A stretch of 64,000 nucleotides of DNA from Clostridia bacterium (GTDB taxonomy: Bacteria; Bacillota; Clostridia; Oscillospirales; Butyricicoccaceae): NCBI GenBank assembly GCA_017394205.1, contig JAFOPS010000115.1, positions 1 through 64,000 on the forward strand. The letters run 5' to 3'. Both the position numbers and the translations under genes were made by a program. Position 1 is the stretch's first letter, and every line of letters begins with the position of its first letter. Of this stretch, positions 41,939-43,128 are shown in pieces. The notes below the pieces were generated by a model that did no database searches, was not told the origin of the DNA, and was given only the letters and a program-made list of their open reading frames with translations.

Positions 41939-42056
41939 TCTTCACTCCTTCATTCGCCCGCAAAAGGCGATTTCGTTGAAAAAACGCGTAAAAGTACACC
42001 GATGCAAAGAAAGAAATCCCAAAAGTACACCAATAAAGAGCTTGACGAACTGGAAT

Positions 42057-42383
42057 CTACCAGCGTTTCATATTCTTTTTGAACTTGCTGATATAGACTT
42101 GCTTTAGTTCTTCTGCTGATATTCCATAACAGAGCAAAACATCATTATAATACATAAGGACATCTGCCAATTCTTCAACGAGGTGAGATCTCAATTTCTC
42201 GTCTTGATTTGCTGTTTCTCCGCCATGTTTCTTGATGATGTCTATTACTTCGCCAATTTCTCCAATCATCCATAGCAGCTTGTTTTTCCCAATTTCCGGG
42301 GATATCGTTTCCCATATATCTTTATACTTATCCTGCAATTCCTTTTGCATTTCAAGCATTTCATTGATTCCAAAATCGTCCAT
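42057..42383 (-). CDS. MazG-like nucleotide pyrophosphohydrolase
   Basis: 108 residues from ATG 42383, chosen because GAGGTG stands 6 bases upstream. All-alpha NTP pyrophosphatase fold: the metal-binding pairs are in MIGEIGEVIDIIKKHGG (ExxE) and LVEELADVLMYYND (EExxD). Members hydrolyse NTPs or dNTPs and house-clean the nucleotide pool. The gene is AT-richer than its neighbours, as is the four-helix gene 44 bases upstream, suggesting a shared, recently acquired module. Substrate unknown. Confidence 0.82.
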   Translation of the reverse strand: MDDFGINEMLEMQKELQDKYKDIWETISPEIGKNKLLWMIGEIGEVIDIIKKHGGETANQDEKLRSHLVEELADVLMYYNDVLLCYGISAEELKQVYISKFKKNMKRW

Positions 42384-42427
42384 CTTTTTCACCTCTTCAA
42401 ATACCGATTTGTTGGGCGTCTTTTCTG

Positions 42428-42784
42428 TCAATGATTCTTTTCCTTTATAGTCATAATAGTTGAAATAAGCATGCGTCTGATTGCACCGCAGTTGTTTTGG
42501 ATCGGTTTGTATGTTTGTTCATCCATATATCCGGTTTCGAACAGCAATTCAAGCCAATACTCTGTTTCATATACTTCTTTAAGGGATATCTCGAACTTTG
42601 AAATAAAGTCTTTTGTCCCCTGTGCGTATTGTGCTTCATGGATATTTGCACCAATAGATGTTCCGCTTCTGAGCAATTGATTTGTCAGCACAGATTCGTG
42701 GTGTTCCTGCTTGATCACCCTGCAAAGAATGACGATTTGCTTTGCAAATTCTTTGGATCTATCGCGGAGAACGCTGTCTGACAT
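42428..42784 (-). CDS. Four-helix bundle protein (23S rRNA intervening-sequence / S23 family)
   Basis: 118 residues, all helical. The family signatures are VTNQ-like LTNQLLRSGTSIGANIHEAQ near residue 35 and FISKFEISLKEVYETEYWL near 62. Related proteins are encoded in intervening sequences of 23S rRNA genes in some bacteria, and the Avd proteins of diversity-generating retroelements share the fold; a role in nucleic-acid binding is thought likely. ATG 42784 follows GAGGTGATGG. It is AT-rich. Its promoter abuts the palindrome array at 42831. Confidence 0.88.
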   Translation of the reverse strand: MSDSVLRDRSKEFAKQIVILCRVIKQEHHESVLTNQLLRSGTSIGANIHEAQYAQGTKDFISKFEISLKEVYETEYWLELLFETGYMDEQTYKPIQNNCGAIRRMLISTIMTIKEKNH

Positions 42785-42803: not shown

Positions 42804-42831
42804 ATTATAATAAAAAAGCAGTACTTTGCAA
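42804..42831 (-). promoter_or_regulatory. Sigma-A promoter of the four-helix bundle gene
   Basis: Minus strand: TTGCAA (42826-42831), 16-base spacer, consensus TATAAT (42804-42809). The last base of the -35 is the first base of the palindrome array. Confidence 0.7.
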
Positions 42832-43003
42832 GTTATATTGCGCCTGCGGCGCAGTTATATTGTCCCTCCGGGACAGTTATATTTTGCAGCGATGCCGCAA
42901 AGTTATATTATATTCGCCTTCAAACTGCGCGCAGCGCAATATCACTCGGCGTAAGCCGAATATAACTGCAACGCAATAGAACTCGCCGCAGGCGAATATA
43001 ACG
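42831..43003. repeat. Two-armed array of variable palindromes spaced by AGTTATATT / AATATAACT
   Basis: Left arm: AGTTATATT at 42831, 42853, 42875 and 42901, with three hairpins between them, GCGCC-TGC-GGCGC (42840-42852), TGTCCC-TCC-GGGACA (42861-42875) and a 7-bp stem with one mismatch (42883-42901). Right arm: the reverse complement AATATAACT at 42938 (one mismatch), 42959, 42975 (one mismatch) and 42995 (last base differs), with hairpins at 42926-42938, 42946-42959, 42967-42975 (weak) and 42983-42995. An 11-bp inverted repeat (42908-42918 with 42991-43001) ties the arms together. Stem sequences differ from one another while pairing is kept. Confidence 0.9.
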
Positions 43004-43042
43004 GAAAGAAACCTGATTTGGTAGACAAATCAGGTTTCTTTC
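43004..43042 (-). terminator. Intrinsic terminator of the tRNA operon
   Basis: A perfect 17-bp stem (43004-43020 with 43026-43042, loop GTAGA), T-rich on the minus-strand 3' side, directly after tRNA-Tyr. Confidence 0.88.
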
Positions 43043-43043
43043 A

Positions 43044-43128
43044 TGGTGGGAGCGGGTGGATTCGAACCACCGTAGGCACTGCCAACAGATTTACAGTCTG
43101 CCCCCTTTGGCCACTCGGGAACACTCCC
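43044..43128 (-). tRNA. tRNA-Tyr (GTA)
   Basis: 85 nt with an encoded CCA end. The acceptor stem GGGAGTG pairs with CGCTCCC; the anticodon stem CAGA/TCTG holds the loop CTGTAAA with anticodon GTA. The long variable arm is that of a class II tRNA, as expected for bacterial tRNA-Tyr. It is transcribed after tRNA-Thr from a shared promoter. Confidence 0.97.

Follow-up and report, generated by a model that had tools for sequence, protein, structure and literature searches.

Two-armed arrays of hairpin-spaced words accompany IVP genes in Clostridia and probably belong to a small mobile element

A 64,000-nucleotide stretch of contig JAFOPS010000115.1 from a Clostridia bacterium of the order Oscillospirales (hereafter the window) contains a non-coding array in which two inverted arms, each made of four 9-nt words with short hairpins between them, touch the promoter of a gene for a small four-helix-bundle protein of the IVP (S23) family. 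What is this array, and what has the protein to do with it? A preliminary description, made from the letters alone, proposed a mobile non-coding element, a binding platform for the protein or a structured RNA. The reading that we favour, with a probability of roughly 60%, is that the array belongs to an IVP-linked mobile element and that its folded DNA is the recognition site of the IVP. Comparison of genomes establishes the dispersal of the arrays, the matching of words to protein lineage, the sharing of units between families, the location at tRNA genes and terminators, and loop insertion in one subfamily.

The array is one copy of a widespread family in gut Clostridia. Of 394 genomes sampled from the order, 51 carry the word array, whereas a reversed-pattern control gave counts near zero, and 38 array stretches lie in genomes of named species. 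Full elements have one common layout and are mostly 169-181 bp long. In the window's own genome (G000), a second array on contig C92 (L033:3873-4045) stands directly behind the terminator of a transfer-messenger RNA (tmRNA) gene (L033:4086-4432). Tandem composites in G027 (L034, L035, L040) consist of arrays in alternation with a second repeat (CGCGCGATTTGATA...). The preliminary description held that pairing, rather than sequence, is selected in the hairpins. Among 255 distinct hairpins from 87 arrays, the 1246 stem positions comprised 1157 Watson-Crick, 21 G-T, 13 A-C and 55 other combinations. Left-arm stems were 92-96% paired with their own partners and 51-53% paired after exchange of partners between hairpins of equal slot and length, in a comparison of distinct hairpins that only partly removes kinship among copies. 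The support for selected pairing is therefore strong for the left arm; the right arm, whose sequence is more conserved, is less informative on covariation. G-T outnumbered A-C pairs in the right arm (11 vs 2) but not in the left (10 vs 11), and the totals over the 255 hairpins gave no clear strand assignment. The rarity of wobble pairs is no more than suggestive of a folded form that is DNA rather than RNA. In the window, 9 word matches with at most one mismatch were found against 2.2 expected, a count reached by 0 of 100 shuffles, and the array as single-stranded DNA folds with z = -7.8 on the plus and -7.0 on the minus strand. The preliminary description had said that the array would be a chance local duplication if nothing recurred elsewhere and no covariation was seen; copies do recur and the stems covary under partner swapping.

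The arrays are associated with IVP genes. An IVP gene was found in 42 of the 51 array genomes and in 121 of the 343 array-free genomes (p = 3e-10). About 15 of some 60 arrays of the window's word are accompanied by an IVP gene, which invariably lies to the left and is divergent, with its start codon usually 44-48 nt from the array. With a word detector allowing one mismatch (exact 6-mers miss degenerate arrays), two-armed words in at least 7 copies were detected upstream of 52 of the 67 IVP genes of the order and in 12 of 670 dinucleotide shuffles. Eight word classes lie upstream of these genes: the ATAT class, AATGATG, AGTGATG, RTGAAG, TGAAAT, AGCTAAA, ATGAATT and AGTTATG. They were assigned by eye before the IVP tree was built, with loci of unclear word excluded, and on this tree the word class changes 8 times (minimum 7), compared with a mean of 33.9 after shuffling (0 of 200 as low) and with 37 changes for host family. 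In several genomes, IVPs with different words occur together. Given the few changes on the tree and the mixture of words within genomes, the word tracks the protein and not the host. It is plausible from this agreement that the array is a recognition site or binding platform for the IVP. As far as the literature was searched, IVP-linked arrays with lineage-specific words are new, and so are the siting of units behind tRNA terminators, the array-only relatives in terminator loops, the tandem heptamers at IVP genes outside the order and the variety of downstream accessory genes; a search outside subscription journals and preprints returned no match for IVP with such arrays and led only to the paper on Gut-1 discussed below.

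The unit, from the 3' end of the IVP gene to about the end of the terminator, shares 77-83% DNA identity with units in several other families, and the flanks are unrelated. Identity ends at both edges in most comparisons, with the terminator-side end near 43045 in several. The orthologous tRNA locus of five congeners has no such unit; congeners carry no array there or, in G002, an apparent degenerate array of another word, and their terminators differ. An IVP of the window's type was absent from two sampled congeners. Of the 67 IVP genes, 31 have a same-strand tRNA gene no more than 500 nt upstream, compared with 8 of 310 control genes (p = 1e-19), and this contrast is conservative because the controls come largely from array-containing loci. 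In G008 the gene adjoining DegV encodes a GNAT protein, and in G002 a similar gene adjoins the tRNA, which suggests that the stretch with the MazG-like gene, the IVP gene and the array replaced or displaced a GNAT-like gene. The MazG homologue of G008 is located elsewhere, without an IVP.

Insertion sites can be read in array-only elements of genus g33, which are about 330-390 bp long with a hairpin at each end. Their flanks are complementary halves of a terminator, with a mean best stem of 8.5 nt against 5.5 nt for swapped partners (14 elements, two of them near-copies; permutation p < 0.0005). For one element (L062), the orthologous sites in G400 and G670 hold an intact terminator, and for another (L264) a similar intact terminator is present in G670 and G400. 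The dispersed copies, the inter-family units and these empty sites support the earlier suggestion of a mobile non-coding element. Near the L264 site, another dispersed hairpin repeat (AAACTCTCGCTTGCAATAGGTTGCTATTGC..., L295-L299) fills intergenic DNA. The gene behind the IVP differs at nearly every locus and overlaps it by 4 nt in about 11. In L128 and L159, IVPs that differ in lineage and word class are followed by the same gene (MKKNYxYWVTPQN...). A conserved motif, GGGTTTGGG...TACAAATGCGATGCTGGTTCT (L131-L134, L146, L274, L279-L281; 12 copies by pattern), gave no Rfam match; depending on the unit, it comes after the IVP gene or after the array promoter.

According to the reading that we favour, the array would form one end of a small mobile element, non-coding and folded. 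The IVP, which has the S23/Avd fold and whose solved relatives are pentameric, would recognise lineage-specific words held between hairpins, in array DNA that may be single-stranded or extruded. It may then direct insertion at hairpin-forming DNA such as terminators, while cutting and joining would fall to a putative enzyme. Array-only copies would be mobilised in trans, and the downstream accessory genes would be cargo. Several points weigh against this proposal. We know of no catalytic activity of an IVP. Nine of the 51 array genomes gave no IVP match, for which incomplete assemblies or loss are possible reasons. No split terminator was found in tRNA-type units, including that of the window, and loop insertion is seen only in the array-only subfamily. 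A target-site duplication was observed at most once, as a possible 3-bp AAG at L062. All evidence of spread is comparative, with no movement observed, and the distal boundary of the IVP unit is undefined, so that in some loci the accessory genes may adjoin the unit without being its cargo. A resident reverse transcriptase was also considered; it was rejected as unlikely because RVT_1 was absent from 14 of 15 array-bearing genomes, including that of the window, and found in one.

There is a minor chance that the arms are a structured RNA, each transcribed as a small RNA and perhaps bound by the IVP in the way of Avd in the RNA-protein complex of diversity-generating retroelements (DGRs). The right arm of the window matches the Rfam family Gut-1 (RF01706) on the minus strand at 42934-43004 with 43.7 bits and the other arm scores 36.7 bits, both below the gathering score of 50, which relatives of several word classes pass at 53-74 bits (L045, L120, L171, L013, L017). 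Like these arms, Gut-1 consists of three hairpins joined by a fixed word, and UGAAAU, its consensus word, is among the word classes described here. The available part of its source lists Gut-1 as a non-coding RNA from environmental, human-gut sequences only and covers a single arm, with no description there of the second arm, the IVP gene or the insertion site (Weinberg et al., 2010; PMC2864571). The claim that the array is not a known form thus has to be divided: the arm was already known as a candidate RNA, while the two-armed context, the protein partner and the insertion sites are new within the literature searched. In favour of a structured RNA, the stems covary and the fold of the IVP is like that of Avd in the DGR ribonucleoprotein 8ub7. 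Palindromic DNA, however, yields identical covariation, and since a single element carries both arms in inverted orientation, either of its strands folds. With 21 of 1246 positions, wobble pairs are rare, and they show no clear strand bias; the terminator hairpin separates the upstream gene from the arm, and we saw no conserved promoter that would read into the arm.

The words that follow the IVP lineage, together with a -35 box that overlaps the last word in many units, would also suit a regulatory site, where the IVP binds the array to control its own promoter and the dispersed copies are further operators. We give this a small chance, since it leaves unexplained the insertion into terminator loops, the whole units shared by families at different sites and the copies far from IVP genes. 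Slimmer still is the prospect of a recombination platform that exchanges accessory genes in the manner of integron attC sites. The varying gene behind the IVP, the 4-nt overlaps and the one gene behind different IVP lineages (L128, L159) fit such exchange; yet the joint is the IVP 3' end and not the array, insertion at different sites also predicts variable neighbours, and no integrase was seen, though none was searched for. A chance local duplication without function has nothing in its favour beyond the short word length, and recurrence, shuffles and covariation rule it out for practical purposes.

Among known systems, the array differs from CRISPR, which consists of direct repeats with unique non-palindromic spacers; here it is palindromes that vary, and the two arms run in opposite orientations. 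The preliminary description had also set CRISPR aside. Repetitive extragenic palindromic (REP) sequences and bacterial interspersed mosaic elements, with their tyrosine transposase RAYT (TnpA-REP), are dispersed inverted palindromes beside a protein gene with non-autonomous copies elsewhere, and are similar in working. IVP (PF05635) is not a Y1 tyrosine transposase, and the present unit is a multi-hairpin word array. Miniature inverted-repeat transposable elements are marked by terminal inverted repeats and a target-site duplication; the g33 array-only subfamily has hairpins at both ends, and the AAG is its one possible duplication. Group IIC introns prefer terminator stem-loops, but there is no intron or reverse transcriptase here, RVT_1 being absent in 14 of 15 genomes. 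DGRs, the systems of Avd, have a reverse transcriptase in the genome, which the window's genome and 13 of the 14 other array-bearing genomes lack.

Outside the order, tandem repeats precede the IVP genes of other Clostridia, Treponema, Nostoc, Planktothrix and Bernardetia. When periods 4-12 were compared upstream of 32 such genes, period 7 was significant in 23; the corresponding figures were 2 of 220 for control genes and 8 of 42 for the remaining genes of these loci. Read by eye, several of these IVP genes adjoin 23S rRNA sequence or the end of another gene. In Coxiella, the 23S rRNA intervening sequence has heptamers GACAGAT just upstream of the S23 reading frame, and such sequences are sporadic, horizontally spread and located at stem-loop helices 9, 25 and 45 (PMC4990558). 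They have the protein family in common with the window unit. Unlike them, this unit is not in rRNA (it lies between tRNA-Tyr and MazG, and Rfam found no rRNA in the window) and has its own promoter, together with a terminator hairpin, an accessory gene and, instead of heptamers, a hairpin array. Insertion at a stem-loop is seen in the g33 array-only relatives and was not seen at the window locus. Heptameric short tandem repeats such as TAACTGA are described in cyanobacteria and Beggiatoaceae in a paper that mentions neither IVP nor intervening sequences (PMC4679880). These repeats share the period of 7 with the sequences upstream of IVP genes outside the order, but have no hairpins between units.

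The features of the window are listed in Table 1. The coordinates given for the array in the preliminary description were exact. Its four copies per arm hold without reserve on the left, where all four words are perfect; on the right they hold only with one mismatch allowed, as the word at 42959 alone is perfect and the other three have one mismatch each. A hairpin lies between every pair of adjacent words, and the loops (TGC, TCC, GAT, GTAA, AAC, GCA) are mostly of 3 nt, as described. The 11-bp inverted repeat said to link the arms was located at 42841-42851 and 42984-42994. The core segment 42910-42918, the complement of the right end of the array, had been missed; this complementarity, read by eye, is also present in other word classes. 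A ladder of four-way junctions, with left words paired to right words, is compatible with the sequence; it is not claimed because the way in which the arms pair in minimum-energy folds depends on the window's own hairpins.

Table 1. Features of the array and its neighbourhood (positions in the window)
Feature	Coordinates	Strand	Description and basis
Two-armed hairpin array	42831-43003		Arms in inverted orientation; four 9-nt words per arm, separated by hairpins
Left arm	42831-42909	+	Words AGTTATATT at 42831-42839, 42853-42861, 42875-42883, 42901-42909; sequence and covariation among 87 related arrays
Left-arm hairpins	42840-42852; 42862-42874; 42884-42900		GCGCC-TGC-GGCGC; GTCCC-TCC-GGGAC; TTGCAGC-GAT-GCCGCAA
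Core	42910-42937	+	ATATTCGCC, complementary to right end GGCGAATAT, then central hairpin GCGC-GCA-GCGC; inverted-repeat pair
Right arm	42938-43003	+	Words AATATCACT at 42938, AATATAACT at 42959, AATAGAACT at 42975, AATATAACG at 42995
Right-arm hairpins	42947-42958; 42968-42974; 42984-42994		CGGC-GTAA-GCCG; GCAACGC; CGCC-GCA-GGCG
Terminal hairpin and intrinsic terminator	43004-43042	.	17-bp perfect inverted repeat; abuts last array word
Predicted IVP promoter	42804-42831	-	-35 TTGCAA 42826-42831, -10 TATAAT 42804-42809, spacer 16; sequence
IVP/S23 four-helix-bundle gene	42428-42784	-	118 aa; PF05635, E = 7.7e-27
Accessory gene, MazG-like	42057-42431	-	4-nt overlap with IVP gene
Probable degenerate right end of second array	41940-41988	.	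Resembles TGAAAT/ATTTCA word class; half terminator hairpin GAAAAAACGCG; read by eye

The window unit is ordered tRNA-Tyr, terminator hairpin, array, promoter, IVP gene and MazG. The terminator hairpin lies 4 nt from the 3' end of tRNA-Tyr, beyond which a tRNA-Thr gene follows, both on the minus strand; terminator and tRNA genes had escaped the preliminary description. Hairpins homologous to this one adjoin arrays in other genomes, at different sites. The array was rightly said to touch the promoter of the four-helix-bundle gene: the predicted -35 box shares one base with the first array word, and a strict pattern finds comparable geometry in at least 21 of 52 IVP units. The protein scores 94.1 bits against the PF05635 profile (curated cut-off 33.8). 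Its structure model (predicted local distance difference test score 93.8) matches 2rld (template modelling score 0.92) and 2gsc and, weakly, Avd of the DGR ribonucleoprotein 8ub7. A Xanthomonas relative is reported to be pentameric in work cited in PMC4990558. On the far side of MazG sits the apparent array remnant, without a match in the Rfam scan of the window.

On a wider view, IVPs may belong to a broad class of small mobile elements that have neither a classical transposase nor a reverse transcriptase of their own, recognise lineage-specific words and insert at DNA hairpin loops, the words being tandem heptamers in most bacteria and hairpin-spaced in these Clostridia. We regard this extension as tentative, at somewhat less than even odds. 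Three unexplained things meet here, namely the S23/IVP family, the Gut-1 candidate RNA and the bacterial heptamer repeats, and if the extension is true, Gut-1 'RNAs' and heptameric short tandem repeats would have one mechanism in common with 23S rRNA intervening sequences. Should insertion into terminator loops be active, such elements would spread with little disturbance of the host and might take accessory genes with them. A word that varies together with a small protein is an apparent natural specificity code, and it offers a handle on protein and repeat families of unknown function.
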